A DNA stretch of 64,000 nt from Epibacterium ulvae. GTDB taxonomy: Bacteria > Pseudomonadota > Alphaproteobacteria > Rhodobacterales > Rhodobacteraceae. This document shows positions 18,100-49,138 of the stretch, piece after piece (position 1 is the stretch's first letter; every line of letters begins with the position of its first letter). The stretch is from positions 62,001 through 126,000 of the forward strand of contig NZ_JAHHIR010000022.1 of assembly GCF_018678075.1 (NCBI RefSeq), written 5' to 3'. The translations under genes and the position numbers were made by a program. A model generated the notes under the pieces. The model worked only from the letters and a program-made list of their open reading frames with translations, did no database searches and was not told where the DNA came from.

Positions 18100-18170
18100 A
18101 CTCCCGCCCGTCACGGATCCATTGAAATAGATCCGCTCCCGTTGGGCCAAACGCCGGGCTGTGCCCGGCG
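18100..18170 (+). repeat. two-hairpin dispersed element, copy A1
   Basis: ACTCCCGCCCGTC (18100-18112) is followed by hairpin 1 (CGGATC 18114-18119 / GATCCG 18130-18135), the box CTCCCGTTGGGC (18136-18147), and hairpin 2 (CGCCGGGC 18152-18159 / GCCCGGCG 18163-18170). It starts 18 bases after the stop of the DUF2798 gene, in sense. It is a member of the family also seen at 18236-18317, 39174-39253, 41834-41897, 48948-49020 and 49061-49138. Confidence 0.8.
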
Positions 18171-18235
18171 CGGGTCACGCGTGGGGCACCGGATTAGGAC
18201 ATTCTTGCGGTAAACAGCAACATACCTAATAACGC

Positions 18236-18317
18236 GCGTAGCACCGCGCATCGCGCGGTGCTACGCCCAACTGCACAGCGTCGCTCCGTCAGGAGGGATG
18301 CGGTGTAGGCGGGAGCC
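18236..18317 (-). repeat. two-hairpin dispersed element, copy A2 (inverted partner of A1)
   Basis: Read on the minus strand it starts with GGCTCCCGCC (18317-18308), 43 bases after the polA stop. Hairpin 1 follows (CTCC/GGAG around TGAC, 18284-18295), then GTTGGGC (18271-18265) and a perfect 14-bp hairpin 2 (18236-18249 / 18253-18266). Copies A1 and A2 face each other with their hairpin-2 ends, so each flanking gene has its own copy in sense orientation. Confidence 0.75.
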
Positions 18318-18359
18318 TTTGCTGCACGGACCCCTTCGTCAACAATCCGCGCGACGGTA

Positions 18360-21161
18360 TCAGTGGGCTTCGGCCCAGTTCCGCCCTTGGCCCGCTTCCA
18401 CAACCAGTTTCACGTTTAGATGCACCGCCGGATCTGCTGCCGTCTCCATCACCTTTTTTGCCACCGAGATGGTTTCCTCGACGGCGGCCTCGGGCACTTC
18501 GAACAACAATTCATCGTGCACCTGCAACAGCATCCGCGCAGGCAGATGGGAGATGGCTTCTGGCATACGCACCATGGCGCGGCGGATCACATCGGCGGCC
18601 GTGCCTTGGATCGGCGCGTTGATCGCGGCGCGTTTGGCAAAGCCCGCCTTTGGCCCTTTGGCGGCAATCTCGGGCGTGTGGATCTTGCGGCCAAACAGGG
18701 TCTGCACATAGCCGTGCTCCTTGGCAAACTCCACCGTGCTGTCCATATAGGCGCGAATACCGGGGAACCGTTCAAAGTAGCGATCGATAAAACCCTGCGC
18801 CTCTTTGCGCGGGATGCGCAGATTGCGCGCCAGACCAAAGCCGGAAATGCCGTAAATCACACCAAAGTTGATCGCCTTGGCCTGTCGGCGAATGTCTGGC
18901 GTCATCTCATCCAGCGGCACGTCAAACATCTCGCTTGCGGTCATGGCGTGAATGTCTTGCCCCGCATCAAAGGCCGCCTTCAGCGCATCAATCCCCGCCA
19001 CATGCGCCAGAATGCGCAATTCGATCTGGGAATAGTCAAGCGACAACAGTACATTTCCGGGTTCCGCCACAAAGGCCTCGCGGATGCGGCGTCCTTCTTC
19101 GCTGCGCACGGGGATGTTTTGCAGGTTCGGATCGCTGGACGCCATCCGGCCGGTGTTGGCCCCGGTCTGCAAATAAGAGGTATGCACCCGGCCGGTATCG
19201 GAATTGATATGATCCTGCAGCGCGTCCGTATAGGTCGACTTCAGCTTGGACAGCTGCCGCCAATCCAGCACCCGACCGGGCATGTCGTGTTCGGTTGCCA
19301 GATCTTCCAGAATATCCGCGCCGGTGGAATATTTACCGTTCTTGCCGCGTTTGCCACCCGGCAGCGCCATCTTGTCAAACAGGATCTCGCCCAGCTGCGC
19401 CGGGGAGCCCACATTAAACGTCTCCCCCGCCAGCTCGTGAATTTCCGCCTCAAGCCCGGCCATCTTTTGGGCAAAAGAATTGGACATCCGGCTCAAGGTT
19501 TCGCGGTCGACCTTGATACCGTGCATCTCCATCTGCGCCAGCACCGGGATCAGCGGGCGTTCCAGCGTTTCATAGACTGTTGTGACCTGACGCTGGTGCA
19601 GTTTTGGTTTGAACTGCTGCCACAATCGCAGGGTGATATCAGCGTCTTCGGCGGCATAGGCCGTGGCCTCATCAATCGCAACCTTGTCAAATGTGATCGC
19701 GGATTTGCCCACGCCCAACAGGGGTTTGATCGGGATTGGCGTATGGTCCAAGTAACGTTCAGACAAAGTATCCATGCCGTGCCCGTGCTCACCACCATGC
19801 AGCGCATAGGACATCAGCATGGTGTCATCCACAGGTCCGACCGCGACGCCGTAGCGAGTAAAAATCTTGGCGTCATACTTCATGTTCTGGCCGATTTTCA
19901 GGATCGCCGGATCCTCGAGCACAAGTTTCAGCAACGCCAGTGCGTCCTCCAGTGGCATCTGCCCGTCGGCCAGACCTTCGCCGCCAAACAGATCATCGCC
20001 GCCGGTCTTGTGGGTTAGCGGGATGTAGCAGGCGCTGCCGGCCTCAACACACAGCGATATGCCCACCAGATCCACGACCATCTCATCCAGGCCGGTGGTT
20101 TCGGTGTCCACAGCAACCCAGCCGCGCGTATAGATCTGGTCGATCCATTTTTGCAGCGCCGCGCCGTCACGCACGCATTCGTATTTTTCAGCGTCAAACG
20201 GCACAGCCTCTGGCGCTGCGGCGGCGGCTTCTGGGGCCGCGACGCTTGCAATCACCGGAGCTTCCAGACCCAGCTGGTTTGCCATCCGTTTTGTCAGGGT
20301 GGTGAATTCCATTTCGGCCAGGAATTGCAACAGCACCTCCGGTTCCGGATCTTTCACCTCAAGATCGGCGATGGTGAAATCCAGATCCATGTCGCAATCC
20401 AGCTGCACCAGCTTCTTGGACATTTCAATCTGGTCGCGTTTTTCGATCAAAGTCTGGCGGCGTTTGGGTTGCTTGATCTCTTCGGCGCGATCCAACAGCT
20501 CTTCGAGCGAACCGAAGTCATTGATCAACAGCGCCGCCGTCTTGATCCCAATCCCGGGCGCGCCGGGGACGTTATCCACGCTATCGCCAGCCAGCGCCTG
20601 CACATCAACAACACGCTCGGGGCCGACGCCGAATTTTTCGTGCACGCCGTCGCGGTCGATGCGTTTGTTTTTCATCGCATCCAGCATCTCAACCCCGTCG
20701 CCGACCAGCTGCATCAGGTCTTTGTCCGAGCTGATGATGGTACAACGCCCACCGGCGTCACGGGCCTGACAGGCGAGCGTGGCGATAATATCGTCGGCCT
20801 CGAACCCTTCGACTTCCTTGCAGGCGATGTTGAAGGCGCGGGTGGCATCGCGGGTCAGCGGGAACTGCGGGCGCAGATCTTCGGGCGCCGGCGGGCGGTT
20901 GGCCTTGTAGAGATCATACATCTCGTTACGGAATGTCTTGCCGGAGTGGTCAAAGATCACAGCTACGTGCGTAGGGGCGTCTGGGCCCGTGTTACTCTCG
21001 ACATAGCGCTGCAGCATATTGCAGAATCCAGAAACCGCACCAATCGGCAGCCCATCAGATTTCCGCGTCAAGGGGGGGAGCGCATGATAAGCCCTGAAAA
21101 TGAATGCAGAACCGTCGATAAGATGCAGATGACAGCCCTTGCCGAATTCAGTATTGCTCAT
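18360..21161 (-). CDS. polA: DNA polymerase I
   Basis: A 933-residue polymerase for Okazaki fragment maturation and repair, with all three domains. The 5'-nuclease is at the N-terminus (LIDGSAFIFRAYHALPP, GDSVDNVPG helix-hairpin motif). The 3'-5' exonuclease is in the middle with its acidic residues intact (VAVDTETTGLDE, AYAAEDADITLRLW). The polymerase carries motifs A (LLSLDYSQIELRILAH), B (RRQAKAINFGVIYGIS) and C (LLQVHDELLFE). ATG 21161 has GGAG nine bases upstream and gives the normal N-terminus; the longer open frame to 21290 runs into the divergent gene. Only 37 bases separate the two divergent starts. Confidence 0.97.
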   Translation of the reverse strand: MSNTEFGKGCHLHLIDGSAFIFRAYHALPPLTRKSDGLPIGAVSGFCNMLQRYVESNTGPDAPTHVAVIFDHSGKTFRNEMYDLYKANRPPAPEDLRPQFPLTRDATRAFNIACKEVEGFEADDIIATLACQARDAGGRCTIISSDKDLMQLVGDGVEMLDAMKNKRIDRDGVHEKFGVGPERVVDVQALAGDSVDNVPGAPGIGIKTAALLINDFGSLEELLDRAEEIKQPKRRQTLIEKRDQIEMSKKLVQLDCDMDLDFTIADLEVKDPEPEVLLQFLAEMEFTTLTKRMANQLGLEAPVIASVAAPEAAAAAPEAVPFDAEKYECVRDGAALQKWIDQIYTRGWVAVDTETTGLDEMVVDLVGISLCVEAGSACYIPLTHKTGGDDLFGGEGLADGQMPLEDALALLKLVLEDPAILKIGQNMKYDAKIFTRYGVAVGPVDDTMLMSYALHGGEHGHGMDTLSERYLDHTPIPIKPLLGVGKSAITFDKVAIDEATAYAAEDADITLRLWQQFKPKLHQRQVTTVYETLERPLIPVLAQMEMHGIKVDRETLSRMSNSFAQKMAGLEAEIHELAGETFNVGSPAQLGEILFDKMALPGGKRGKNGKYSTGADILEDLATEHDMPGRVLDWRQLSKLKSTYTDALQDHINSDTGRVHTSYLQTGANTGRMASSDPNLQNIPVRSEEGRRIREAFVAEPGNVLLSLDYSQIELRILAHVAGIDALKAAFDAGQDIHAMTASEMFDVPLDEMTPDIRRQAKAINFGVIYGISGFGLARNLRIPRKEAQGFIDRYFERFPGIRAYMDSTVEFAKEHGYVQTLFGRKIHTPEIAAKGPKAGFAKRAAINAPIQGTAADVIRRAMVRMPEAISHLPARMLLQVHDELLFEVPEAAVEETISVAKKVMETAADPAVHLNVKLVVEAGQGRNWAEAH

Positions 21162-21198
21162 GACATTCTTCTCCAAGCTTCGTTGAGTGTTTACTGAC

Positions 21199-21753
21199 AT
21201 GTTCCGCTTTGTTCTTCCAGTCGCTCTTTTGCTCCTGACCGTTTCTATGGGCACTGCCGCCCGCACAGAGGCATCGACGACCTCTGCCATTCAGGGCCAA
21301 ACCACCCCGTCCGACCTGCAAGCCGCGCAACCCCCATGCCCGCGTTCAAAGGGTGAAAAGCGGGCCTGCATGCGGGTTTTGGCCTGTATCGGCGACAAAG
21401 GCGTGTTTTTTGACGGGCAGGCTCGCGGCGATGGGGTTGGCATCATTCTGGGTCACACCAGCGAAGGCGTGCAATGTTCCGGCCATTGGAGCGATGTTGA
21501 CGGAACAGACATCCGTGGCGAGGGACGCGCGCGTCTCAAATGCACCGACGGGTCCCGGTTTCATCTGGTCTACGACGGGCGCGACACCCGCGACGGAACG
21601 CAAATCGGCGTCGGCAAAGACAGCCAAGGCCGCATGATTCGTGCCTGGACCGGCGACGATGTCGTGCATTTTTTCGAAGATAAGGACCACAAATCCACGT
21701 TGAAATGTGGCGATCGGATGGTGCCGTTAGGCGAGACGGCGTCAATCGATTGA
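21199..21753 (+). CDS. secreted protein of unknown function
   Basis: A 184-residue protein with a clear signal peptide (MFRFVLPVALLLLTVSMGTAA), then a low-complexity Thr/Ser/Pro/Gln linker and a domain with five cysteines (CPRSKGEKRACMRVLAC, VQCSGHW, LKCTDGSRF, LKCGDRM). These are probably disulphide-bonded in the periplasm or outside the cell. Glycine- and aspartate-rich repeats (GDGVGIILGHTSEG, YDGRDTRDGTQIGVG) suggest a small beta-sheet fold. I do not recognise the family. GTG 21187 is an alternative start. Because polA starts 37 bases away on the other strand, the promoters must overlap. Confidence 0.75.
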   Translation: MFRFVLPVALLLLTVSMGTAARTEASTTSAIQGQTTPSDLQAAQPPCPRSKGEKRACMRVLACIGDKGVFFDGQARGDGVGIILGHTSEGVQCSGHWSDVDGTDIRGEGRARLKCTDGSRFHLVYDGRDTRDGTQIGVGKDSQGRMIRAWTGDDVVHFFEDKDHKSTLKCGDRMVPLGETASID

Positions 21754-21859
21754 TTTCTGTGCGGTCTGCAAACTGGCCTGATGCGTTTTCTTGTAACAAC
21801 CGGCGCGAACAAGGCCCGGTTCAATTGAACATCCAGCTCACAATAACACGCCCAAAACA

Positions 21860-21888
21860 AAACGCGCCCACATCGCTGGGGCGCGTTT
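21860..21888. terminator. bidirectional Rho-independent terminator
   Basis: A 10-bp stem (AAACGCGCCC 21860-21869 / GGGCGCGTTT 21879-21888) with a 9-base loop lies between two convergent genes. On the minus strand it is followed by TTTTGTTTTG, a good intrinsic terminator for the zinc-finger gene. On the plus strand the stem ends in TTT only, so it is weaker there. Confidence 0.75.
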
Positions 21889-21909
21889 CAAACGGTTAAA
21901 CGGTAGGTT

Positions 21910-22092
21910 TTACGCCGCTTTGTCTGCGTGATCCTTGTGGATGTATTTGCAGTCGCAATAAGGGCATTCCACAAATCCCGCGTCCGTGGGGATTTGCAGG
22001 TAGACGCGCGGATGGCCTAATGCGCCTTCGCTGCCGTCGCATGAGATGCGGTAGCTATCTACGATCTTGGTTTCAGGCGCTTCGATGCTCAT
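21910..22092 (-). CDS. zinc-finger domain protein (zf-CHCC, NDUFS6-like)
   Basis: A 60-residue protein with the CHCC zinc-finger pattern: SCDG, LGHPRVYLQI with the ligand histidine, and VECPYCDCKYIHK with paired cysteines. This is the bacterial relative of the mitochondrial complex I accessory subunit NDUFS6 and is widespread in alphaproteobacteria as a free-standing gene. ATG 22092 is the only sensible start. It is monocistronic, with a terminator just downstream. Confidence 0.9.
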   Translation of the reverse strand: MSIEAPETKIVDSYRISCDGSEGALGHPRVYLQIPTDAGFVECPYCDCKYIHKDHADKAA

Positions 22093-22163
22093 CGCTGGCG
22101 GTCCTCTTGATTTTCATATACGCGCATTTATGAGCCAAGGCAAAACCGGGGGCAAGGGCTGGG

Positions 22164-23096
22164 ATGAGCGAAGATGCAATCCGTCTGGAAGCAGTGCGGA
22201 AAACCTACAACGGGCGCAAAGGTCAGCCCGAGAAACACGCGTTACAGGGCATCGATCTGTCCATTCCGCGCGGGTCGGTCTTTGGTCTGTTGGGGCCCAA
22301 CGGTGCCGGGAAATCCACCTTGATCAATATCTTGGCCGGACTGGTTCTGAAAACCAGCGGCAAAGTGTCGATCTGGGGTTTTGATCAGGACGCAAGCCCG
22401 CGCCAGTCTCGTGCCGCCATTGGCGTCATGCCCCAAGAGCTGAACCTCGATCCCTTCTTCACCCCACGCGGCGCATTGGAAGTGCAGGCAGGCCTGTATG
22501 GCGTGCCCAAATCCGACCGCCGCAGTGATGAGATTCTGCGGATGATCGGCCTGGAAGACAAAGCCGAAGCCTATGCCCGGACCCTCTCTGGCGGTATGCG
22601 GCGGCGTCTGCTGTTGGGCAAGGCGCTGGTGCATCGGCCCAATATTTTGGTGTTGGATGAACCCACGGCCGGCGTCGATATCGAACTGCGCCAGATGCTG
22701 TGGGACAATATTCGCAAGCTGAATGCGCAAGGCATGACCATCATCCTCACCACACATTACTTGGAAGAGGCCGAGGAAATGTGCGACGAGATTGCGATCA
22801 TCAATCAGGGATCGGTTGTGGCACGCGACACCACCAGCAATCTGCTTGGCCGTCTGGATGGGCGCGCGATGGTGGTTCACCCTGCCACTCCGGTCACCAC
22901 CTTACCCCAAGGCGACGGGATCGAGGCTGAGTTGCGCGGTGACGGCGCCGTTGTCCTGCGCTACCGCAGCCAGGCCACCACCGCCGAAGCCGTCCTGGAA
23001 GCGGTGCGGGCCGCCGGTATTTCGATCCGCGACGTCAAAACCGAAGAAGCAGATCTTGAGGATGTCTTCCTCTCTCTGACCTCCTCGGCGGCTTAG
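22164..23096 (+). CDS. ABC-2 type transporter ATP-binding protein
   Basis: A 310-residue ABC ATPase: Walker A GPNGAGKST, Q-loop VMPQELNLDP, signature LSGGMRRRLLLGKAL, Walker B ILVLDEPTAGVD and H-loop ILTTHYLEE. The C-terminal extension (VKTEEADLEDVFLSLT) is characteristic of ATPases paired with ABC-2 type permeases (YadG/CcmA/DrrA-like). No permease gene is next to it; an unrelated FAD oxidase follows after a 228-base gap. The transported substrate is unknown. ATG 22164 has AAGGG five bases upstream. Confidence 0.88.
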   Translation: MSEDAIRLEAVRKTYNGRKGQPEKHALQGIDLSIPRGSVFGLLGPNGAGKSTLINILAGLVLKTSGKVSIWGFDQDASPRQSRAAIGVMPQELNLDPFFTPRGALEVQAGLYGVPKSDRRSDEILRMIGLEDKAEAYARTLSGGMRRRLLLGKALVHRPNILVLDEPTAGVDIELRQMLWDNIRKLNAQGMTIILTTHYLEEAEEMCDEIAIINQGSVVARDTTSNLLGRLDGRAMVVHPATPVTTLPQGDGIEAELRGDGAVVLRYRSQATTAEAVLEAVRAAGISIRDVKTEEADLEDVFLSLTSSAA

Positions 23097-23153
23097 GCGT
23101 TGCAGTAGCTGCGCACGCCGCGGTATTAATATTTTAGCATATTAAACAATAAG

Positions 23154-23176
23154 ATAGGTTTCTCTGCGAAACCTAT
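23154..23176. promoter_or_regulatory. 9-bp perfect inverted repeat in an AT-rich gap
   Basis: ATAGGTTTC (23154-23162) and GAAACCTAT (23168-23176) flank a 5-base loop in the unusually AT-rich gap between the ABC gene and the FAD oxidase gene. It could be the 3' hairpin of the ABC transcript, though no T-run follows, or an operator for the oxidase. No other gene is visible in this gap. Confidence 0.35.
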
Positions 23177-23324
23177 GTGGGCCGTCCTGTGGTGCGAAAT
23201 TGAGCATTTTGGCGGCCTGCACTCTGGACCGTGGTGCAAAAACGTCCTGATATTCAGAAAACGTATTTCCAGTGCTGTCACACTGTGCCTAACTGGCCGG
23301 TGACGATATTTGGATCGCTTCACT

Positions 23325-24599: not shown

Positions 24600-24629
24600 T
24601 TCCCCCGTTTCACAGCGGACTCGCAATGG

Positions 24630-24644
24630 GAACAAAAGGGGAAT
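24630..24644. promoter_or_regulatory. SOS (LexA) box-like site before dnaE2
   Basis: GAAC-AAAAGGG-GAAT matches the alphaproteobacterial LexA site GAAC-N7-GAAC with one mismatch in the second half. It sits 14 bases upstream of the dnaE2 ATG, where LexA would block transcription. A perfect version with a similar A-rich spacer is in front of imuB (51460-51474). Confidence 0.6.
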
Positions 24645-24658
24645 ATCATATCTCTGCC

Positions 24659-27586: not shown

Positions 27587-27728
27587 GGCCGCGCTATACG
27601 CAAAAGTTGAACGCAGGCATCGCTGTGCGGCCGCGAAGGTGGTTTGCCAAAGGCGTGCAAGTCTGTAGAAGGCATATGACCGAAGAAATAAGCCCTTTTT
27701 GGGGGCAAGGCAGCGCCGGAGCGAATTG

Positions 27729-33652: not shown

Positions 33653-33658
33653 CCCGCC

Positions 33659-37828: not shown

Positions 37829-37855
37829 ATCCGATATCGTAGTCGGTGACGAAAG

Positions 37856-37882: not shown

Positions 37883-37901
37883 GTAAGAAAGCGTGAAAGC
37901 C

Positions 37902-39170
37902 ATGACCCAAAGCTCTGATGACATTCTGGCGCAGATGATGGCGCTGCATCCCAAGATCATTGATCTGACGTTGGACCGTGTCTGGCGTCTGCTGGCGGCG
38001 CTGGACAATCCACAAGAAGACCTGCCGCCGGTGATCCATATTGCGGGCACCAATGGCAAAGGGTCGACCCAGTCGATGATCCGCGCAGGCCTGGAAGGCT
38101 GGGGTAAATCGGTGCACGCCTATACCTCACCCCATCTGGCGCGGTTTCATGAACGCATCCGTCTGGCGGGCGATCTGATCTCAGAAGCACATCTGATCGA
38201 CATTCTGGGTGAGTGCTACGCCAAGAACGAAGGTGAGAACATCACCTATTTTGAGATCACAACGGTGGCCGGCCTGTTGGCCTTTGCCCGGGCAGAGGCG
38301 GATTACACCCTGTTGGAGGTCGGTCTTGGTGGGCGGTTGGATGCCACCAATGTGGTCACGCCCGAGATCTCGGTGATCACCCCGGTGTCAATCGATCATG
38401 AACAGTTTCTGGGCAATACGCTGACCAAGATCGCGACCGAGAAAGCAGGCATCATCAAACGCGGCGTGCCCGTGGTTGTTGGCCCGCAATCCGAGGAGGC
38501 GATGGAGGTGATCGAAGACGTCGCCCTGCGTCTTGGCGCGCCAGTGATTGCGCAGGGTCAGCATTGGCATGTCTGGGAAGAACGCGGGCGGCTGGTGTTT
38601 CAGGATGAACGCGGGTTGTTGGACCTGCCGCTGCCCGCGCTGCTTGGTGCGCATCAGATCGACAATGCCGGGGCCGCGCTGGCAGTGTTGCGGCATCTGG
38701 GGGCAGATGAAGCTGCCTGTGAGGCGGCGATGACCGATGCGGTCTGGCCTGCGCGGATGCAGCGTCTTGCGACGGGCCCCTTGGTTGAGGTCGCAGGTCG
38801 GGCTGAGCTGTGGCTGGATGGCGGGCATAACGCGGCAGCGGGTGCGGCGCTGGGTGCGGTACTGGCGGGCTTACCAAAACGGTCGACCCACCTGATTTGC
38901 GGCATGCTGAACACCAAAGATATCGCGGGTTATATGCGCCCGCTTGCAACTGTGGCTGATAGTCTGACGGGTGTTTCGATCCCCGGAGAGATGAACACGC
39001 TGAGCGCTGAGCACACGCGCGACGCAGCCGCAGCCGTCGGGATGGCGGCGCAGGTCGCCGGTTCCGTCGAAGAGGCCCTGGCGGAGATCGTGGCGCAAGA
39101 CCCCGACGCAAGGGTGCTGATTTGCGGATCGCTCTACCTGGCGGGGCATATCCTGCGCGAAAACGGATGA
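37902..39170 (+). CDS. folC: bifunctional folylpolyglutamate synthase/dihydrofolate synthase
   Basis: A 422-residue Mur-ligase-type enzyme that joins glutamate to dihydropteroate and to folates. ATP site HIAGTNGKGST, then YTSPHLARFHERI, YFEITTVAGLLAF, LLEVGLGGRLDATN, VITPVSIDHEQFLG, KAGIIKRG and LDGGHNAAA in canonical order. ATG 37902 is chosen over GTG 37893. The two-hairpin element (copy B) begins 20 bases after the stop codon in sense. Confidence 0.95.
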   Translation: MTQSSDDILAQMMALHPKIIDLTLDRVWRLLAALDNPQEDLPPVIHIAGTNGKGSTQSMIRAGLEGWGKSVHAYTSPHLARFHERIRLAGDLISEAHLIDILGECYAKNEGENITYFEITTVAGLLAFARAEADYTLLEVGLGGRLDATNVVTPEISVITPVSIDHEQFLGNTLTKIATEKAGIIKRGVPVVVGPQSEEAMEVIEDVALRLGAPVIAQGQHWHVWEERGRLVFQDERGLLDLPLPALLGAHQIDNAGAALAVLRHLGADEAACEAAMTDAVWPARMQRLATGPLVEVAGRAELWLDGGHNAAAGAALGAVLAGLPKRSTHLICGMLNTKDIAGYMRPLATVADSLTGVSIPGEMNTLSAEHTRDAAAAVGMAAQVAGSVEEALAEIVAQDPDARVLICGSLYLAGHILRENG

Positions 39171-39173
39171 TCC

Positions 39174-39253
39174 GCCCGGCCCAACGGGATGCTCCCGCCC
39201 GTCTTTGGTCTGACGACCGCATCCCGTTGGGCCGGGCGCCGCTGACGCGGCGC
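39174..39253 (+). repeat. two-hairpin dispersed element, copy B, with a 19-bp inverted repeat
   Basis: GCTCCCGCCCGTC (39191-39203), hairpin 1 (GGTC-TGAC-GACC, 39207-39218), ATCCCGTTGGGC (39221-39232) and hairpin 2 (GCGCCGC-TGAC-GCGGCGC, 39236-39253). An inverted half copy precedes it, so that GCCCGGCCCAACGGGATGC (39174-39192) pairs perfectly with 39219-39237. The rest of the gap to zapE holds AATACTTCGGGG-type sequence and a short AGGGGC/GCCCCT hairpin (39324-39338) at the zapE stop. Confidence 0.8.
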
Positions 39254-39337
39254 AGGGGCTTCCAGACGCAAGGTCTTTCATCTTTTTGAAAATACTTCGG
39301 GGTGAATTGGCCGTCAGGGCAAGAGGGGCAGAGCCCC

Positions 39338-40405
39338 TTAGATCTGTCCCCAGTCCTTGTCCTGCATTTCCCGCAGGCGGCTGGCAGTGCGTTCAAATTC
39401 AAACACGCCTTCACCCTCGACATAAAGAAATTCAGGCTCAGCAGCTGCGGAACAGATCAACCGCACGCGCGCCTCATAGAGCGCATCAATCAGGGTCACA
39501 AACCGTTTTGCTTCGTTAAAGTTGCTGCGCCCGAGGCTGGGGATATCCTCAAGGATCAGTACTTTGACTTCCTCGGCAATGGCGAGGTAGTCGCCAGGGC
39601 CCAGCATCTTGCCACAGAGGTCAAAAAACCGCGCGCGGGCCACACCGTTGCGGAAGGCGGGCAGTTCGACCAGTCGCCCTTTGACTTCCAGTTGCAGTGG
39701 CTCGGCCGCTCCACCCGCCAGATCGTCCCAGATGACCTGGATCTGCGCACGGGCATCTGCGTTGTTCGGAGAAAAATAGACCTGCGATCCGGTCAGGCGG
39801 TCCTGGCGGTAATCGGTGGGAGAGACCATCTCCCAAACCTCCATCTTGTCCTTGATGAGGTCGATGAACGGCAGGAACAGCTGGCGGTTCAACCCATCCT
39901 TATAGAGGTCATCGGGCACTCGGTTGGAGGTTGTGACCACGGTAACACCGGCCTCAAACAGCGCCTCAAACAGGCGGCCAACGATCATCGCGTCGGTGAT
40001 GTCGGTGATCTGCATCTCGTCAAAGGCCAGGAGGCGCACGGATTGCGCCACATCGCGGGCCACTGGCGCTAGCGCATCGGCGGTGTTTTTCTGGCGCGCG
40101 ACATGCATCTTGGCGTGAATTTCCTGCATGAAGGCGTGGAAATGCACTCGACGGCTGGGAATATCGCCAATGCTTTCGACAAAGAGATCCATCAACATGG
40201 ATTTGCCCCGACCGACGCCGCCCCAGAGGTAAAGGCCCTTTACTGCCTGCGGTCGCGCTTTGCGGAACAGGCCCCGTTTCACCGGCGCGGCCTGCAGCCC
40301 TTCGCCGATACGGTCGAATTCGGGAATAACGGCGGTTTGTGCGGAATCCGGACGGAGTTCGTCGGCGGCGACTTTGGCGTGGTAAAATGCGTGTAACGAG
40401 GTCAT
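39338..40405 (-). CDS. zapE: cell division protein ZapE (AFG1-like ATPase)
   Basis: A 355-residue P-loop ATPase of the ZapE/LACE1/AFG1 family, which in Escherichia coli acts at the division ring under stress and low oxygen. Motifs are GLYLWGGVGRGKSMLMDLF (Walker A), RVHFHAFMQEIH, LLAFDEMQITDITDAMIV (Walker B), TTSNRVPDDLYKDGLNRQLFLPFI and the C-terminal RFFDLC and ICSAAAEPE regions. Length is normal. ATG 40405 lies in a 158-base divergent gap shared with an MFS gene. Confidence 0.95.
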   Translation of the reverse strand: MTSLHAFYHAKVAADELRPDSAQTAVIPEFDRIGEGLQAAPVKRGLFRKARPQAVKGLYLWGGVGRGKSMLMDLFVESIGDIPSRRVHFHAFMQEIHAKMHVARQKNTADALAPVARDVAQSVRLLAFDEMQITDITDAMIVGRLFEALFEAGVTVVTTSNRVPDDLYKDGLNRQLFLPFIDLIKDKMEVWEMVSPTDYRQDRLTGSQVYFSPNNADARAQIQVIWDDLAGGAAEPLQLEVKGRLVELPAFRNGVARARFFDLCGKMLGPGDYLAIAEEVKVLILEDIPSLGRSNFNEAKRFVTLIDALYEARVRLICSAAAEPEFLYVEGEGVFEFERTASRLREMQDKDWGQI

Positions 40406-40563
40406 GGCAGAAGCCTTAACGCCTGTTTGATGATGAGAAAAGCATCGCTAGGCCTCCTAAAGCCAAGTTGCATCAAAATTAGTGAACATGTTGCGCATTT
40501 TTCATGATTTGACCGCATTGCAGCGCTCAGTAAGGTTCGTCTGCCCTCCAGAAAGGAAACCCT

Positions 40564-41820: not shown

Positions 41821-41833
41821 TCATCGCGCCACC

Positions 41834-41897
41834 CGCGCCGCGTCAGCGGCGCGCGGCCCAACGGGATGAGACCTTCAGGTCGAAGACGGGCGGGAGC
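41834..41897 (-). repeat. two-hairpin dispersed element, copy C
   Basis: Read on the minus strand: GCTCCCGCCCGTC (41897-41885), hairpin 1 (GACCT/AGGTC, 41870-41881), ATCCCGTTGGGCC (41867-41855) and hairpin 2 (CGCGCCGC-TGAC-GCGGCGCG, 41834-41853). It begins 19 bases after the stop of the ornithine cyclodeaminase family gene, in sense. It fills the 95-base gap between two convergent genes. Confidence 0.8.
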
Positions 41898-41915
41898 ACA
41901 CGCCCCTTGTTGGGA

Positions 41916-42839
41916 TTAACTGCCGTTCTGGGCCTGCCACAGGGACAGGATATGGCGGGCGGTCATCAGATCCAGATGAGCACCGCCGCCGTTTTTGAAC
42001 AGGGTGATCTCGGTCGGATCAAAGGCCGGGAAGGCCGCGATGTCATAGAAATCTGCCAGAACATCTGAACGCTGCAACACACCCTCGGACAGCGGGATTT
42101 TGAACTCGCCGATATGATTCAGCGTGGTGTCAAAACTGTCGGTGAAAATCCGCGCCCGTTTCAGCGCCGTATCATCCGCTTCGCGCATGTCGGGGCGATA
42201 GGCACCGATCATGTTCAGATGCTGTCCGGGGCGCAGCCAGTTGCCTTGGATCACAGGGGTCGAAGACATGGTGCAGGTCAGGATAATATCCGCTGCGCGC
42301 ACCGCAGGCTCCAACGCATCAGCCACAACCACACCGGGGTATTGCGCACAAAGCGCTGTGGCCTTGGCCGGAGTGCGGTTCCAGACGCGGATCTGGGCAT
42401 TTGGGTAGCAGCTAGAGAAAGCCTCGATCAGGGAGCCAGCTACCGTGCCTGCACCCACAATCAAGATCTCCTCAGCCGCCGGATTGGCCAAACGCCGCGC
42501 GCCCAGTAGGCTGTCGCCAGCGGTTTTCCACTTGGTCACCAGATGGAAATCCACCAGCGCCTCCGGCACCCCGGTTTGATCGGCATACAGCATCACTGCG
42601 CCATTGATCATTGGCACGCCTCGGGCGGAATTGCCGGGAAAGATATTGGCGGTTTTGACAGTCATGCCCAGGCCATCAATCCAGGCGGCGCGGCTGAGCA
42701 ATGTGTCGTCCTTGCGATACAGGAATGTGTCGCCAATCTCAGCCTTGGGCAGGTTATGCCCAACGACAAGCGCCTCGGTAAAGGCGCGCCAGTCCAGCAG
42801 TGCCTCTCCCTGTTCGAACGTGATACTTGGCAGGCTCAT
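41916..42839 (-). CDS. ornithine cyclodeaminase/mu-crystallin family protein
   Basis: A 307-residue NAD(P)-binding protein of the OCD/mu-crystallin family. The nucleotide site is EILIVGAGTVAGSLIEAF; substrate-side motifs are VKTANIFPGNSARG (lysine), NMIGAYRPDMREAD and LFKNGGGAHLDL. The family includes ornithine cyclodeaminase, ketimine reductases and pyrroline-2-carboxylate reductase, and the exact reaction cannot be told. The start overlaps the HAD gene stop as ATGA, so DMT, HAD and this gene form one minus-strand operon. Confidence 0.88.
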   Translation of the reverse strand: MSLPSITFEQGEALLDWRAFTEALVVGHNLPKAEIGDTFLYRKDDTLLSRAAWIDGLGMTVKTANIFPGNSARGVPMINGAVMLYADQTGVPEALVDFHLVTKWKTAGDSLLGARRLANPAAEEILIVGAGTVAGSLIEAFSSCYPNAQIRVWNRTPAKATALCAQYPGVVVADALEPAVRAADIILTCTMSSTPVIQGNWLRPGQHLNMIGAYRPDMREADDTALKRARIFTDSFDTTLNHIGEFKIPLSEGVLQRSDVLADFYDIAAFPAFDPTEITLFKNGGGAHLDLMTARHILSLWQAQNGS

Positions 42840-43468: not shown

Positions 43469-43492
43469 GAGATGTTCCTTAAATTCGGTATT

Positions 43493-44455
43493 CTAAATAT
43501 TGCGCGGTCTGGGGCGGCTGGGTGGTTTTTGCAGCCGTGTCTCACGCCACAGCGAAACAAGCCCGGCCCCGATGATCAAGAGGGAACCGAGCCAGACGTG
43601 AAATTCGGGCCATTCCTGAAACACCAAGATGCCCCAAACCGTGGCAAGGGGCAGGGCGATGTATTCAAACGGCGCCACCAGCCCGGCTTCGGCTGTTTTA
43701 TAGGCATGGCTGATGAGGAACCCGCCCACGGACCCCGCCACTCCCGCGCCGATAAACAGGGGCAATTCGGCCGCAGTTGGCCAGGACCAGGGGCGCAGCA
43801 GGAAGTCACCCAATTGGGAGCCGGATCCGGCCCATTTCCCGTCGCCAAACCAGAGCCCCGCCGCCAGGCTGACGATCAAGAACCCACACAAAGGGTAAAA
43901 GGACAGCGCAACCGTCGCGTCGTGTTTTCCGATATGGCGCGACATCACATGCATGCCCGCATATCCGCAGGCCCCGGCCAACGGCAAAAGCGCGGCCCAT
44001 TGGAAGCTGTCACTGCCGGGGCGCAGGATGATCAAAACACCGACAAAGCCGATGCCAACCGCGCTCCACCGCCAGGGGCCGACATGTTCGCCCAAAACCA
44101 CCACCGACAGGATCGTGACCACAAGCGGGGCCGCAAAGCTGATGGCGACAGCATCAGCCAAGGGCAGCACGGCAAGGCCCGAGAAAAACGTGATATTGGC
44201 CCCCAGAACCAGCAGGCAGCGCAGGGCATGCAGACGTGGTACCTGGGTGCGCAGGGTGCGATACCCGCCCGCCAGCGGCGTCAGTACCAGCAACAGCAGC
44301 GCCAGGGCGATGGTTGTGCGGATGAACACCACCTCGTACAGCGGATAGCCCGACGACAAGAATTTGAACAGCATATCGATAATGGAAAAACAGGCCGCGC
44401 CGCCAACGGCCGCCAGTATTCCGAGGATCTTTGCCGAGTTTGAAATAGTGTGCAT
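43493..44455 (-). CDS. DMT family transporter (EamA)
   Basis: A 320-residue inner-membrane protein with ten hydrophobic helices in two EamA repeats (first about 8-140: GAACFSIIDMLFKFLSSGYP ... EHVGPWRWSAVGIGFVGVL; second about 155-305: GFLISHAYKTAEAGLVAPFE ... GSLLIIGAGLVSLW). It probably exports amino acids or other metabolites. ATG 44455 has AAGGAG upstream; the frame is open further to 44524 but without a good start. It is the first gene of the operon with the HAD hydrolase and OCD-family enzyme. Confidence 0.9.
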   Translation of the reverse strand: MHTISNSAKILGILAAVGGAACFSIIDMLFKFLSSGYPLYEVVFIRTTIALALLLLVLTPLAGGYRTLRTQVPRLHALRCLLVLGANITFFSGLAVLPLADAVAISFAAPLVVTILSVVVLGEHVGPWRWSAVGIGFVGVLIILRPGSDSFQWAALLPLAGACGYAGMHVMSRHIGKHDATVALSFYPLCGFLIVSLAAGLWFGDGKWAGSGSQLGDFLLRPWSWPTAAELPLFIGAGVAGSVGGFLISHAYKTAEAGLVAPFEYIALPLATVWGILVFQEWPEFHVWLGSLLIIGAGLVSLWRETRLQKPPSRPRPRNI

Positions 44456-44665
44456 CGACGCTCTCCTTGGGTGTTTGTGGCGTGGGGATGTGTGGGACGC
44501 AAACCTATTCTGCGGTGGGTACAATTATCGGGTGTATCAAGTTTTTGCACCTGCCAGACAGCATCACAAAACACGAATTGTGGCCCCACAGCACGTAATT
44601 TTTCAGCGGGTTTTGGGGTGGTTAGGTTTGGACGAAATTCAGTGCCTGATCAAAAGAATGCATCC

Positions 44666-44960
44666 ATGATAACCTGTTATATCACCTATGAAATCGACCC
44701 CGATAAAATTGCTGAGTTCGAGATTTACGCCCGCGTCTGGATCCCGCTGGTGAACCGGTTGGGTGGGACGCATCTTGGTACTTCCTACCCCATGAACGCG
44801 CCAATGATCTGGCGGTGGCCTTGTTCAGCTTCCCGTCCCTTGCCGCCTATGAAGATTACCGGGGCACAAGCCTGGAGGACGCGGAATGTCAGGCGCGTTT
44901 GCCTATGCCACCCGTCACCAGATGATCCGCAGATATGACCGGCAGTTTATGCGCCCGGTG
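44666..44960 (+). pseudogene. NIPSNAP family protein, frameshifted remnant
   Basis: The ATG at 44666 opens a NIPSNAP-like frame (MITCYITYEIDPDKIAEFE, WIPLVNRLGGTHL). At about 44773-44779 the homology jumps to another frame (YFLPHERANDLAVALFSF, YEDYRG), and at about 44892-44895 it jumps again (AFAYATRHQMIRRYDRQF, MRPV). Both shifts fit loss of a single base. No stop codon follows the usual C-terminus; the last frame runs on antisense to the DUF188 gene. The intact family member would be about 100 residues. The 210 bases before it, back to the divergent DMT gene, contain no other feature I can support. Confidence 0.8.
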
Positions 44961-45001
44961 ACCCATGGGGATCTGGCACCGCTGATGGCCCTAATGGCGG
45001 A

Positions 45002-45454
45002 TCAGGCCCGAGCGGCGCGCAATTCGCGTTCCAGCGCATCCAGAAACCGCGAGCGGTCGGCCTTGGTGAAGCCTTTGCCGCCGCCCTGCATGCCCAATGG
45101 GTTGGCGGCGCGCAGATCGGCCATCAGGTCGCGCATGGCCAGTTGCTGGCCGATATTGGCCTGGGTGAAACGTTCACCGTTATGGCGCAGCACCTGGGCG
45201 CCGGCCTCGATACATTTGGCGGCCAGTGGGATATCACCGGTGACCACAACATCGCCCGGACCGCAGCGTTCAGCAATCCATTTGTCGGCCTCGTCCGCGC
45301 CGGCAGAGACGATGACGTTCTCCACCAAAGGGTTGGCAGAGGGGCGCAGCCCGCCGTTTGAGACGACGAACATGCGCAATTTGTGGCGGGTTGCAACGCG
45401 CTCTGCCTCGGCCTTGACCGGGCAGGCGTCGGCATCAATGTAAAGCGCGTTCAC
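45002..45454 (-). CDS. YaiI/YqxD family protein (DUF188)
   Basis: A 150-residue member of UPF0178/DUF188, a PIN-like fold of unknown activity. Motifs are [20 protein letters not shown] (acidic N-terminus), [54 protein letters not shown] and the glycine-rich [21 protein letters not shown]. It starts with GTG at 45454, overlapping the sthA stop as GTGA, so it is coupled to sthA at the end of the fghA-sthA-DUF188 operon. Confidence 0.92.
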
Positions 45455-46956
45455 TCAGCTGCCTTTTGGGCGCCGGCGTCGCGCTTTTCATCGCTTTTGG
45501 CGGCGGTTTTCTTGGTCGCGGCCTTCTTAGGTTTGCTGGCCGTGGGGACCTTGTATTCGTCGGGAATGGGCATGCGGTTGAACGCATCCAGGCCGGCGAT
45601 TTTATAGGCCTCGGCCAGGGTCGGATAGTTGAAGGTGTTCTGGACAAAATAGTCCACGGTGCCTTGCAGGTTCAAAACCGCCTGGGCGATGTGGATCAGC
45701 TCGGTCGCGCCTTCACCGACGATCTGTACCCCCAGAACCCGGCGGGTTTTAAGGGAGAACAGCATTTTCAACATGCCATGTTCCAGACCCATGATGTGCC
45801 CGCGCGAGGTCTCGCGGAAGCGGGCAATACCGACCTCATAGGGAACATTGCGTTCCTTCAGCTCTTCCTCGGACATGCCACAGGTGGACATTTCCGGCAC
45901 CGAATAGATGCCATAAGGGTACCAGGGGCTTTCGGGCACGGTGGGGGTGTCCAGCGCGTGACAGGCGGCCACCCGTCCCTGCTGCAGCGAGGTTGACGCC
46001 AGCGACGGGTGGCCGATCACGTCGCCGGTGGCGTAGATATGGCCGACCTTGGTCTGATAGGTCTTGCGGTCCACATCGATGCGTCCGCGATGGTCGGTTT
46101 CCAGCCCCACCTCGGATAGGTTCAGACGATCGGTGTTGCCCATACGGCCCGCGGCAAACAGCAGCATTTCGCCGCGAATATGACGGCCATTTTCCAGCGT
46201 GACCTCGATATGGTCGCCTTCGTCTTCGATCGATTTGATGGCAGAACCCAAACGCAGATCAAGGCCGTTTTCGCGGATCTGATGGGTGAATTCCTGGATC
46301 AGGGTGCGGTCGATGAAATCAAGGAAGGTGTCGCGCGGCTCGATCAAGGTGACGCGCACGTCAAGAGCGGCAAACATGGTGGCATATTCCACCCCGATGA
46401 CCCCGGCGCCAACCACGATCAAGGAACGCGGGATTTCCGCCATCTCAAGGAATTCATCACCGTCGACAACGGTTTTGCCGTTAAAGGGCACATATTCGGG
46501 GCGATAGGTGCGGGTGCCGGTTGCAATCAGGAATTTTTCACCGTTGACGCGGGTGGTGTCGCCCGCCTCGATCTCAACCTCGACCTCATTTGGACCAACG
46601 AAATGCGCCATGCCGCTGAGGGTGTCGACATGGTTGCGGTTAAACTGGTGTTCCAGCACGTCAACCTCGTAATCCAAAGTCATATGCAAGCGCGCTTTGA
46701 GGTCGTCGGCCTTGATCTGGTCTTTTACCCGATAAGAGCGGCCATAAAAGCTGCGCTCGCGCCAGCCAGAAAGGTTCAGCACGGTTTCGCGCAGGGTCTT
46801 TGACGGGATCGTGCCGGTGTGGACAGACACGCCGCCCAGCCGGTCCTTGCGGTCGATCACCAGGACGCGGCGTTTCAGTTTTGCGGCTTGGATGGCGGCG
46901 GTGCGTCCCGAGGGACCGGAGCCGATGACAATCAGGTCGTAGTCAAATTCGCTCAT
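45451..46956 (-). CDS. sthA: Si-specific NAD(P)(+) transhydrogenase (soluble) with basic C-terminal tail
   Basis: A 501-residue flavoprotein that equilibrates NADH and NADPH. FAD motif [22 protein letters not shown] motif [21 protein letters not shown], and [16 protein letters not shown]. As expected for SthA rather than a disulphide reductase, the redox cysteine pair is absent ([17 protein letters not shown]). About 30 residues longer than enterobacterial SthA because of a lysine/alanine-rich tail ([18 protein letters not shown]). GAGG lies nine bases before ATG 46956. It follows fghA by 14 bases and overlaps the DUF188 gene by four. Confidence 0.94.
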
Positions 46957-46970
46957 ATCAGGGATCCTCG

Positions 46971-47804
46971 TTAGCTGTTGTACAGCGCGTCAGCGTGGAA
47001 GGCGACGTGCTCTTCGATAAAGGTGGAGACAAAGTAATAGCTGTGGTCATAGCCGGGCTGCAGACGCAGGGTAGCCTGTTGACGTTTGGCATGGACCGCT
47101 TCGGCCAGGGCTTCGGGTTTCAACAGATCCAGGAACTGATCCTCGGTGCCGGTGTCGATCAGCATCGGACCTTTGAACCCTGTCTCGCGCATCATCAAAG
47201 TGGCGTCATGTTTGGCCCAGGCGGAGGTGTCATTGCCCAGATAGGCACCCAGTTGTTTGCGGCCCCAATCGCTGGCGCTGGGGTTTGAGATCGGCGCAAA
47301 GGCTGAGACCGATTTGAACCGACCCGGCAGGCCCATCGCCAGTGTGAGCGCGCCGTGACCGCCCATCGAATGCCCTGTGATCGACTGGCGCTCCAGATCG
47401 ATCGCGAAATTCTCTCCCAGAAACGCGGGCAGCTCTTCGGCAATGTAGCTCCACATTTTGAAATGCGGCGCCCAGGGGTCTTGGGTTGCGTCGACATAGA
47501 AACCGGCGCCTTGGCCCAGGTCGTAGGCGTCGTCATCAGCAACACCTTCGCCGCGTGGGGAGGTGTCGGGGAAGACAATCGCGATCCCTTGCTCGGCGCA
47601 CCAGGCCTGCGCGCCGGCTTTGGTCATGGCGTTTTCATGGGTGCAGGTGAGGCCGGACAGATACCACAGGATCGGAACCGGACCGCTTTCAGCCTCTTCC
47701 GGTAGGAACAGACCAAAGGTCATATCGCAGCCTGTGCTGCTGCTTTTGTGGGAATAAACGCCTTGGGTGCCGCCAAAGCATTTGTTCTCAGATACGGTTT
47801 CCAT
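46971..47804 (-). CDS. fghA: S-formylglutathione hydrolase
   Basis: A 277-residue serine hydrolase of the esterase D family that splits S-formylglutathione to formate and glutathione in formaldehyde oxidation. Motifs are FLPEEAESGPVPILWYLSGL, CTHENAMTKAGAQ, FPDTSPRGEGV, nucleophile GHSMGGHGALTLA and the C-terminal YDHSYYFVSTFIEEH with the catalytic His. ATG 47804 follows an AGGAAGAGG box; the open frame upstream to 48119 is shadow of the AEC gene. No glutathione-dependent formaldehyde dehydrogenase gene is in the window. It heads an operon with sthA. Confidence 0.94.
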   Translation of the reverse strand: METVSENKCFGGTQGVYSHKSSSTGCDMTFGLFLPEEAESGPVPILWYLSGLTCTHENAMTKAGAQAWCAEQGIAIVFPDTSPRGEGVADDDAYDLGQGAGFYVDATQDPWAPHFKMWSYIAEELPAFLGENFAIDLERQSITGHSMGGHGALTLAMGLPGRFKSVSAFAPISNPSASDWGRKQLGAYLGNDTSAWAKHDATLMMRETGFKGPMLIDTGTEDQFLDLLKPEALAEAVHAKRQQATLRLQPGYDHSYYFVSTFIEEHVAFHADALYNS

Positions 47805-47923
47805 GAATCGCCTCTTCCTGTTTTGACTTAGGGCTAAAGGGCCAAGGCTGACCCGTCCAGCGCAGGGACGCCACCGAAAGCTGTTTTCGCGCCATTTGCT
47901 TTCTTTTATCTGAAACTTCCGCG

Positions 47924-48853
47924 TTAAAATGTGGAAACCCAGGCAATGACCGCAGGCAGGGTGAGGATTGAGGCAACGGTGGACAGGAAAATCGCAGCAG
48001 AGGCCCGTTGCGCGGCCACGCCGTAATGTTGCGCCAGCATATAGACGTTGCCCGCAACTGGCAGCGCGGCGGCCGCGATCACAATCTGGGTCGGGTAAGG
48101 TGCGACCGGGAACAGCCACAAAGCGCAGACTGCAACACAGGCGGGATGCAGTACCAATTTGCCAAAGCCGAGCCAGGCGGCAACCTGCAGGCGTTCCGAC
48201 GATTTGATGGCCAGCGAGGCGCCAATTGCAAACAGCGCGCCAGGTGTGGCCGCGCCGGACAGGATCATCAGGAAATCATTCATCGGCTGCGGAATTGGCA
48301 TCTGGGATGCAGACCACAACAAGCCGGCGGTGATCGCCAGGATCATCGGATTGGCAACAAGCCCTTTGAGGACCAGCCAGAGCGTTGCGGCGGTTTGCCC
48401 TGTGCTTTTGCTCAGGTTGATCAGTATGACGATCAGCGATGAAAACACCACAAGGTCGATGGTCAGGATCAACATCATCGGGCCGACAGAGGCTTCGCCA
48501 AACAGAATTGTCATCATCGGCAGGCCCATAAAACCGATGTTGCCGATCACGACACATTGCGCTTCAACCGCTGAGGTGGGCGTGTCTTGGTTGCGCCAGA
48601 GCGCGACCGCGGTGGCCAGTAGGTAGGCGACAACTGATCCTGTCAGGTAGGCCCAGAGCAGGTTTGGGTCAAAAATTTGCTCAAGCGTGAGGTTGGCCGC
48701 AAACCGGAAGATCATTGCCGACAGGGGAAAGAAGAACACAAACCGTGTCAGCGCAGCAGTGGCGGATGGCGATAAAAACCCAGTGCGGCCCGCGCCAAAG
48801 CCAAGGCCGATGATTGCAAAGAAGGGCAGGGTTCGCAGGAATATTTCAATCAT
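47924..48853 (-). CDS. AEC family transporter (auxin efflux carrier type)
   Basis: A 309-residue protein with about ten transmembrane helices: MIEIFLRTLPFFAIIGLGFG at the N-terminus, then GNIGFMGLPMMTILFG at the first crossing region, and AATPGALFAIGASLA and AAALPVAGNVYMLAQHYG in the second half. These are the hallmark proline- and asparagine-containing kinks of the auxin efflux carrier family, which exports organic acids or amino acids in bacteria. ATG 48853 is the correct start; the frame runs open to 49513 only as antisense shadow. The 94 bases upstream show nothing else before element copy D1. Confidence 0.9.
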   Translation of the reverse strand: MIEIFLRTLPFFAIIGLGFGAGRTGFLSPSATAALTRFVFFFPLSAMIFRFAANLTLEQIFDPNLLWAYLTGSVVAYLLATAVALWRNQDTPTSAVEAQCVVIGNIGFMGLPMMTILFGEASVGPMMLILTIDLVVFSSLIVILINLSKSTGQTAATLWLVLKGLVANPMILAITAGLLWSASQMPIPQPMNDFLMILSGAATPGALFAIGASLAIKSSERLQVAAWLGFGKLVLHPACVAVCALWLFPVAPYPTQIVIAAAALPVAGNVYMLAQHYGVAAQRASAAIFLSTVASILTLPAVIAWVSTF

Positions 48854-48947
48854 TGCGCGTAGAGGTAACGGGTTATGAACGCTACTCAAAGCGGAAAAAC
48901 AACAGGTTGTAAGTTTTTGCCATTGTTGCGGATCCGCTACCCCAAAC

Positions 48948-49020
48948 ACTCCCGCCCGTCGCAAGATCACCAGGGTGATCTGCTCCCGTTGGGCGTGGCC
49001 CTGCCCGCAGGCGGGCAGGG
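48948..49020 (+). repeat. two-hairpin dispersed element, copy D1
   Basis: ACTCCCGCCCGTC (48948-48960), hairpin 1 (AGATCACC 48964-48971 / GGTGATCT 48974-48981), CTCCCGTTGGGC (48983-48994) and hairpin 2 (CCCTGCCCGC 48999-49008 / GCGGGCAGGG 49011-49020). This is the only copy without a gene ending just before it in sense; it is the inverted partner of D2. The two fill the 305-base gap between the AEC transporter start and the mbfA stop. Confidence 0.8.
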
Positions 49021-49060
49021 TGGTTGCGTCAAGGTCAAACCGGTTCAAGGATGCGGGACC

Positions 49061-49138
49061 GCGCCGCGCCTTTCGCGCGGCGCTTGGCCCAACAGTGGAG
49101 GGGCAGTCTGTGACTGTTCCCGGAATTGGCGGGAGCAC
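49061..49138 (-). repeat. two-hairpin dispersed element, copy D2 (inverted partner of D1)
   Basis: Read on the minus strand it starts with GTGCTCCCGCC (49138-49128), 21 bases after the mbfA stop, in sense. It continues with hairpin 1 (CAGTC/GACTG, 49104-49116), GTTGGGCC (49093-49086) and hairpin 2 (GCGCCGCGC/GCGCGGCGC, 49061-49083). Its boxes are more diverged from the consensus than in the other copies. Confidence 0.75.

Follow-up and report, generated by a model that had tools for sequence, protein, structure and literature searches.

A two-box hairpin element at the 3' borders of genes in Epibacterium ulvae and related bacteria

Introduction

What is a structured repeat doing just behind the stop codons of unrelated genes? 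The question is raised by a stretch of 64,000 nucleotides (nt) from Epibacterium ulvae (assembly GCF_018678075.1, contig NZ_JAHHIR010000022.1, positions 62,001 to 126,000 of the forward strand), referred to below as the window. It holds six copies of an element in which two conserved boxes enclose one hairpin and adjoin another. The original prediction, made from the letters of the window, took the element for RNA structure in the 3' untranslated region (3'-UTR) of the gene it follows. The element itself is solid; its function we infer. Our tentative reading, which falls somewhat short of an even chance, is that it is a bidirectional 3'-border RNA element whose structure forms in RNA that is antisense to the gene it follows. 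On sequence grounds, a role in termination, processing or stability is possible.

Anatomy and distribution of the element

All six copies are present where they had been placed, and the earlier coordinates take in hairpin 2 and match the sequence. The pattern CTCCCGCCN{15,45}GTTGGGC has six matches in the window compared with 0.01 expected, and none of 100 shuffles reaches six. On the strand that carries CTCCC (the CTCCC strand), the element consists of a purine-rich stretch of 7 nt, box 1 (CTCCCGC[C/G]), the stem-loop of hairpin 1, box 2 ([G/C]TTGGGC), a linker NNRGC and hairpin 2. The GC that closes the linker is 98% conserved. The invariance of the boxes is imposed by the search pattern in every pattern-based set.

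The element is not confined to the window. The E. ulvae genome (G000, 4.09 Mb; other genomes compared include G002, G010, G014 and G017) has 55 copies of subtype 1 (reversed-pattern control, 1) and 24 of subtype 2, CTCCCGCG..CTTGGGC (control, 2), making 79 copies. Subtype 2 differs from subtype 1 by a coupled switch of base 8 and the opening base of box 2, from C-G to G-C. A covariance model built on subtype 1, R1, was run on 1.46 Mb; most of its 56 matches up to E=1 are copies that the pattern also finds.

Beyond the boxes and short preferences adjoining them, the arms of the 55 subtype 1 copies have no family-wide sequence. Some subtype 2 copies resemble each other more than subtype 1 copies do. 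Four of them (G000:C74:10876-10928, C68:33124-33177, C57:58098-58151 and C45:16050-16104) have the extended arms CTCCCGCGCCCGCAGGTGCC..CCTTGGCGGCCTTGGGC in common, and from their sequences they may be a younger group or one homogenised by conversion.

More copies are found in relatives. Each of 16 other same-genus genomes that are at least 94% complete has 14-97 subtype 1 copies (controls 0-4), and a seventeenth, 67% complete, has 5. In seven genomes from other genera within the family, copy numbers are 45 and 58 in two cases and 0-3 in the rest. In a survey of the order with R1, 41 of 196 genomes from 18 of 87 genera match at E<=0.01, counts that are lower bounds because at most 30 candidates were scored per genome. 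All the matching genomes belong to the family of E. ulvae. The distribution in Rhodobacterales is patchy. A stricter pattern that includes CGTC..CCC matches at least 118 stretches of named genomes, and 78 of the 80 among the matches listed carry names that we take to be Rhodobacterales (Leisingera, Phaeobacter, Ruegeria, Tropicibacter, Tropicimonas, Tritonibacter and others). The exceptions among these 80 are an Oscillospiraceae metagenome-assembled genome (L043) and Roseospirillum parvum (L107). No viral contig matches the stricter pattern, which represents one arm class only. An annotated Leisingera plasmid carries one copy, which is flanked by a gene with a peptidase-G2 domain and a convergent mannose-1-phosphate guanylyltransferase gene.

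Covariation in the stem

The hairpin arms had been said to differ between copies and yet to stay self-complementary. They do, and the compensatory change is real. Two alignments were fitted to the model of the strand opposite CTCCC (the GGGAG strand): A5, with 57 matches from the E. ulvae genome, and A4, with 133 matches from other genera. In A5, 203 cells are altered on both sides of a pair, compared with 87.1 in shuffles. Its covariation score is 0.389, compared with 0.113 after shuffling; no shuffle reaches it and slid controls give at most 0.087. In A4, 341 cells are altered on both sides, compared with 99.9 in shuffles. For A4, A5 and A2 (an alignment to the CTCCC strand) the score exceeds all 500 column-shuffled controls. 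Because the search that yielded the other-genus loci required CGTC..CCC, the arm statistics of A4 and of the other-genus set follow in part from the pattern. The own-genome and G017 sets do not carry this bias.

Comparison of E. ulvae with G017 gives 32 syntenic element pairs matched by flanking genes, 27 of them through both flanks. The G017 regions were chosen for arms resembling the E. ulvae copies, which favours similar pairs, and 32 of 74 E. ulvae elements were matched. Their paired columns comprise 321 that are unchanged, 22 double Watson-Crick replacements, 50 switches between canonical and non-canonical pairs and 9 switches among non-canonical pairs. In G017, two inverted elements 2.9 kb apart (G017:C34:219554 and 222426) are identical over 41 nt and their E. 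ulvae counterparts differ. The two sequences suggest local gene conversion at this pair.

Which strand folds

If the structure acts as RNA, which RNA is it? In 202 of 219 elements, 68 of 74 from E. ulvae and 134 of 145 from other genera, the GGGAG strand (GCCCAA-stem-GCGGGAG) gives hairpin 1 the more stable fold, by a mean of about 4 kcal/mol. This speaks against the placement of the structure in the sense 3'-UTR of the preceding gene. The difference survives trimming of 7 columns per side (56/74 and 111/145). In the trimmed inner stem, G-U pairs number 51 on the GGGAG strand versus 9 on the CTCCC strand in E. ulvae, and 90 versus 15 in the other genera. Isolated non-canonical columns on the GGGAG strand, both sets taken together, are G-U (81), A-G (41), G-G (20) and A-C (11). 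In A5, the pair formed by columns 15 and 92 is G-C 29 times, C-G 15, G-U 11, A-U once and another combination once. This is a standard pair in 56 of 57 cases on the GGGAG strand versus 45 of 57 on the other.

The tandem mismatches have a fixed order. On the GGGAG strand they read 5'-GA/5'-GA in 18 of 50 cases among the 74 E. ulvae elements and in 14 of 24 among 43 elements from G017, which is 32 of 74 in total; AG/AG is found in 0 of 74. The arms of these sets lie outside the search pattern. Sheared tandem G.A pairs in RNA have this 5'-GA/5'-GA order. The original prediction had the element in the sense direction of the preceding gene. As a statement about position this stands. As a statement about the folded strand it is probably wrong, judging by stability, trimming and the GA/GA order.

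Position relative to genes

Genes were called with a custom dicodon script rather than a published annotator. For distances in the E. ulvae genome, genes covering an element were excluded, and elements without a neighbour were dropped (71 of 74 E. ulvae and 143 of 145 other-genus elements kept; one dropped other-genus element lies inside a called gene). Five window copies had been placed 18, 43, 20, 19 and 21 nt behind a stop codon. The measured distances from stop codon to box 1 are close, at 18, 44, 21, 19 and 23 nt. The spacing also holds against random placement: in 43 of 71 E. ulvae elements no more than 45 nt separate box 1 from a same-strand stop codon, compared with 10.4%. In the other genera a same-strand gene lies behind box 1 in 113 of 143 cases, at a median distance of 26 nt. 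Only 1 of 145 other-genus elements and 3 of 55 E. ulvae copies are inside a called gene, and these three are probably due to over-long gene calls.

Elements are concentrated between convergent genes. Among gaps of 100-420 nt on five large contigs (together 0.99 Mb), an element occupies 11 of 25 between convergent genes, 4 of 187 between tandem genes and 0 of 108 between divergent ones. In a wider sample, partly selected for elements, the counts are 21 of 49, 13 of 286 and 1 of 156. The contexts of 214 elements from both sets are convergent (127), tandem with the CTCCC strand (45), tandem with the GGGAG strand (32) and divergent (10). Orientation relative to flanking genes, which had been proposed as a check, is clear for stop-codon position; the bias in tandem contexts is only mild.

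Many elements face a partner. Of the 214, 101 have one on the hairpin 2 side, and 34 of these 101 gaps measure 27-31 nt, about one hairpin 2. Facing pairs can thus have hairpin 2 in common. Read along either strand, a facing unit consists of a weak hairpin 1, then hairpin 2, then a strong hairpin 1 shortly before the opposing gene. The reverse arrangement also occurs. At G000:C29:123195-123289 two elements stand back to back and their boxes form a 16-nt perfect palindrome, GGCGGGAGCTCCCGCC; the same arrangement is found in G017.

A border function and its difficulties

How might such an element work? The folded RNA would read 5'-hairpin 2-NNNNN-GCCCAA-[C-G; G.G; G-C; often tandem G.A/A.G; stem-loop]-GCGGGAG-3'. 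It would typically end about 20-30 nt before running into the gene from behind, so that hairpin 1 would act in RNA that comes towards that gene from downstream of its stop codon. Where two genes converge, the structure would provide the transcript of the neighbouring gene with its 3' end. Some protein, RNA polymerase or an RNase might recognise the invariant boxes and G.A loops. RNA or transcription would be ended or trimmed at the element, sparing the gene ahead from invasion, and facing pairs would act in both directions. In Ruegeria pomeroyi, 69 of 99 reported small RNAs are antisense to genes (PMC4809877).

A more specific version is doubtful. It would make this a dedicated border system, confined almost to one bacterial lineage, in which an antisense-strand RNA motif and an undescribed factor stop or trim transcripts before they reach the 3' side of a gene, insulating convergent genes without U-tracts.

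Do the elements replace ordinary terminators? In convergent gaps of the E. ulvae genome, U-tract terminators on either strand are found in 6 of 21 gaps with an element versus 19 of 28 without (p=0.0096), in a sample partly chosen for element-bearing contigs. An earlier and cruder count gave 10 of 33 versus 62 of 129.

Several observations weigh against an antisense border element. The depletion of U-tracts is not significant in other genera (19/60 vs 10/25, p=0.46) or in five large E. ulvae contigs (4/11 vs 8/14, p=0.43). Replacement of ordinary terminators is thus significant in one of three comparisons, and U-tract depletion does not serve as proof of termination. In convergent gaps with a single element, U-tracts are equally rare on each strand (12 and 11 of 69), so that the data are silent on which gene is served. 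Single elements in tandem contexts lean to the CTCCC strand, 24 versus 12, and the folded strand there would be antisense RNA. Standard cells on the GGGAG strand exceed those on the CTCCC strand by little (628 vs 610 of 839 in A5, 1411 vs 1367 of 2009 in A4). Pairs with any both-side change are not above shuffles (95 of 500 reach the value in A4, 181 of 500 in A5), nor are further pair types in A5 (211 of 500 reach). The CTCCC-strand alignment A2 covaries almost equally well, with 71.0% of cells paired and a score of 0.326 compared with 0.096 shuffled, as any hairpin does when viewed from the opposite strand. Covariation therefore does not choose the strand, and the case for the GGGAG strand is built on stability, G-U counts and GA/GA order. 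Finally, when flanks are included, the minimum-energy fold rearranges hairpin 1 in window copies 3, 4 and 6. Since single folds of these copies prefer other pairings, the structure claim rests on comparison.

Alternative explanations

What if function resides in the CTCCC-strand RNA, which is the 3'-UTR of the preceding gene? It could be a 3'-end stabiliser or a terminator, perhaps a C-rich, weakly paired CUCCCGCC..UCCCG offered to Rho right after the end of translation. This is rather unlikely, although it would explain the tight spacing to same-strand stop codons and the mild CTCCC preference in tandem contexts, and it is about as compatible with the covariation. Both arms are C-rich (C 0.41 and 0.48, partly imposed by the search pattern), and if selection favoured a CTCCC strand rich in C and poor in G, many of the A.C, C.C and C.U mismatches would likewise result, a further point against our reading. 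However, such a constraint cannot account for the fixed GA/GA order on the other strand, and hairpin 1 is the weaker on the CTCCC strand in nearly all elements. At positions 11 and 12 of the 55 E. ulvae copies the mismatches are mainly T.C (21) and C.T (17), with no C.C, and the box is preceded by 10 nt that are rich in G (0.41-0.51) rather than C-rich and G-poor.

The element might instead act as DNA: between convergent genes, one strand would form a hairpin or cruciform to which a nucleoid protein, topoisomerase or recombinase binds, much as at bacterial interspersed mosaic elements (BIMEs) or integron attC sites. We regard this as unlikely. Enrichment between convergent genes would fit, as would facing pairs that flank a palindrome, and strand-asymmetric folding is a feature of attC too. 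The loops GCAA, GCA, GTCA and GCCA, found on the folded strand in other genera, also suit DNA hairpins. Against a DNA element stand the frequent G-U type pairs and the gene-end spacing, which fit RNA, and the 32 pairs that have stayed at syntenic sites. For the integron integrase (TIGR02249), none of 15 genomes has a match over the cut-off; weaker matches occur in each of the 15, as in each of the 14 control genomes. Of 16 genomes of the genus, E. ulvae included, G010 and G014 have the RAYT transposase domain (Y1_Tnp, PF01797); the E. ulvae genome is among the 14 without it.

The comparison with attC can be taken further. attC sites have the consensus ends GTTRRRY and the complementary RYYYAAC. 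Like them, the element lies behind a stop codon and folds better on the bottom strand, and the GTTGGGC end of subtype 1 fits GTTRRRY. In contrast to attC, its other end is CTCCCGC and not RYYYAAC, the end of subtype 2 is CTTGGGC, and the copies are dispersed, for example behind the DNA polymerase I gene. With ends that are not of the complementary type and no integrase over the cut-off, attC was rejected.

Could the copies be ordinary intrinsic terminators whose common sequence reflects descent or chance? This is improbable. Hairpin 2 has the GC-rich hairpin of an intrinsic terminator and is strong at gene ends (median minimum free energy -22.3 kcal/mol, median z -2.1, z < -2 in 52%, n=218). 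The layout also resembles bidirectional intrinsic terminators, with one palindromic stem between two convergent genes. However, there is no T-run 3' of hairpin 2 (T 0.15-0.19), nor a U-tract after hairpin 1: over the 10 nt preceding box 1, A, which reads as T on the other strand, reaches no more than 0.22-0.23. The invariant CTCCCGC/TTGGGC boxes and the additional hairpin 1, with its conserved internal loops and tandem G.A pairs, are foreign to intrinsic terminators, and the same genome has ordinary U-tract terminators.

Enterobacteria carry tens to hundreds of palindromic units at 3' ends in their repetitive extragenic palindromic (REP) elements and BIMEs, associated with RAYT transposases. 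The present element is similar in its many short palindromic units at extragenic 3' ends, often between convergent genes and in facing pairs. It differs in that its arms vary by site and covary, so that the shared part is the boxes; the 55 subtype 1 copies have no palindrome sequence in common, whereas several subtype 2 copies do share arms. The original prediction had set REP aside, and the differing, covarying arms and the lack of Y1_Tnp in the E. ulvae genome agree; with that domain in only two of 16 genomes of the genus, RAYT/REP was rejected. A REP-like selfish repeat that spreads and settles in 3' flanks by chance is very improbable: the patchy copy number between genera (0 to 97) and the identical stretch in G017, suggestive of local copying or conversion, would fit, but subtype 1 arms without family sequence, synteny with compensatory change, the scarcity of Y1_Tnp and of copies within called genes do not.

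Is it a known RNA? Invariant boxes with a covarying stem are typical of many curated Rfam motifs. Nevertheless, Rfam families were rejected. In Rfam release 15 the window has no match at gathering thresholds and 14 element loci have none at E<=0.1. At 18050-18360 the matches are far below threshold, the best being frnS with 24.3 bits compared with 60. Hairpins at mRNA 3' ends are also found in structured 3'-UTRs and in small RNA ends bound by ProQ or Hfq, but the element lacks the U-rich tail of such ends. The ProQ domain is absent from all 17 element-bearing genomes tested and present in 1 of 20 genomes without an R1 match, and ProQ/FinO recognition was rejected. No published description was found in the open-access literature, as judged by titles and the starts of abstracts, and so far as that literature shows the element is undescribed.

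The window copies and their neighbours

The window copies and the genes behind whose stop codons they lie are listed in Table 1. These genes are functionally unrelated, which makes a general role likelier than a regulon. Copy 4 is kept in the relatives G002 and G017, with a compensatory change in G017. An element fitting the strict pattern is kept at 3 of 14 orthologous OCD gene loci examined, E. ulvae included; retention is low mostly because gene order differs elsewhere.

Table 1. Element copies and preceding genes in the window
Feature	Positions	Strand (hairpin 1: proposed folded strand)	Remarks
Hairpin 1 unit, copy 1	18101..18147	-	GCCCAAC..GGCGGGAG; boxes CTCCCGCC/GTTGGGC on plus
Hairpin 2, copy 1	18153..18169		GCCGGGC-TGT-GCCCGGC; by eye
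Hairpin 1 unit, copy 2	18265..18315	+	boxes on minus
Hairpin 2, copy 2	18238..18264		GTAGCACCGCGC-ATC-GCGCGGTGCTAC, arms a perfect palindrome; by eye and folding
Hairpin 1 unit, copy 3	39192..39232	-	41-nt short form; boxes on plus
Hairpin 2, copy 3	39236..39253		by eye
Hairpin 1 unit, copy 4	41856..41896	+	41-nt short form; boxes on minus
Hairpin 2, copy 4	41835..41852		by eye
Hairpin 1 unit, copy 5	48949..48994	-	boxes on plus
Hairpin 2, copy 5	48999..49020		by eye
Hairpin 1 unit, copy 6	49087..49135	+	boxes on minus
Hairpin 2, copy 6	49061..49083		by eye
DUF2798 gene	17843..18082	+	stop 18 nt before copy 1
DNA polymerase I gene	18360..21176	-	stop 44 nt before copy 2
Mur ligase-like gene	37893..39170	+	stop 21 nt before copy 3
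OCD/mu-crystallin family gene	41916..42839	-	stop 19 nt before copy 4
Rubrerythrin/VIT1 gene	49159..50133	-	stop 23 nt before copy 6

Copy 5 (48949, plus) has no called same-strand gene behind it. The stretch 48850-48949 places it in front of the minus-strand Mem_trans gene, with no gene called on its own strand. As called (47924-49048), the start of Mem_trans covers copy 5 and has probably been set too far upstream. An opposite-strand gene on the box 1 side is found for 42 of 214 elements, and small RNAs or missed short genes behind such box 1 sides are possible.

Two further observations were made around copy 3. Just before it, at 39171-39191, stands GCCCAACGGGATG, the exact complement of the copy's own CATCCCGTTGGGC. 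From this complementarity a competing hairpin is possible; no such complement before the box was seen at the other five window copies. On its other side, at 39253-39340, is a second repeated intergenic sequence, CTTTCATCTTTTTGAAAATACTTC (GGGGTGAATTGGCC..GGCCAAGAGGGGCAGAGCCCC), which recurs at L231, L057 and G000:C29:102877. It is found whole or in part in several 3' flanks, another genus included, and its strict core has two matches in a 1.48-Mb sample.

Significance

To our knowledge, little is understood of how convergent units are kept apart without U-tracts in high-GC alphaproteobacteria. The element has a defined sequence, an unusual strand polarity and no Rfam counterpart, and it is numerous both in E. 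ulvae and in each near-complete genome of its genus. If it is a true border element, it would be a compact bidirectional insulator, and it would point to an undescribed RNA-binding factor or mode of termination.

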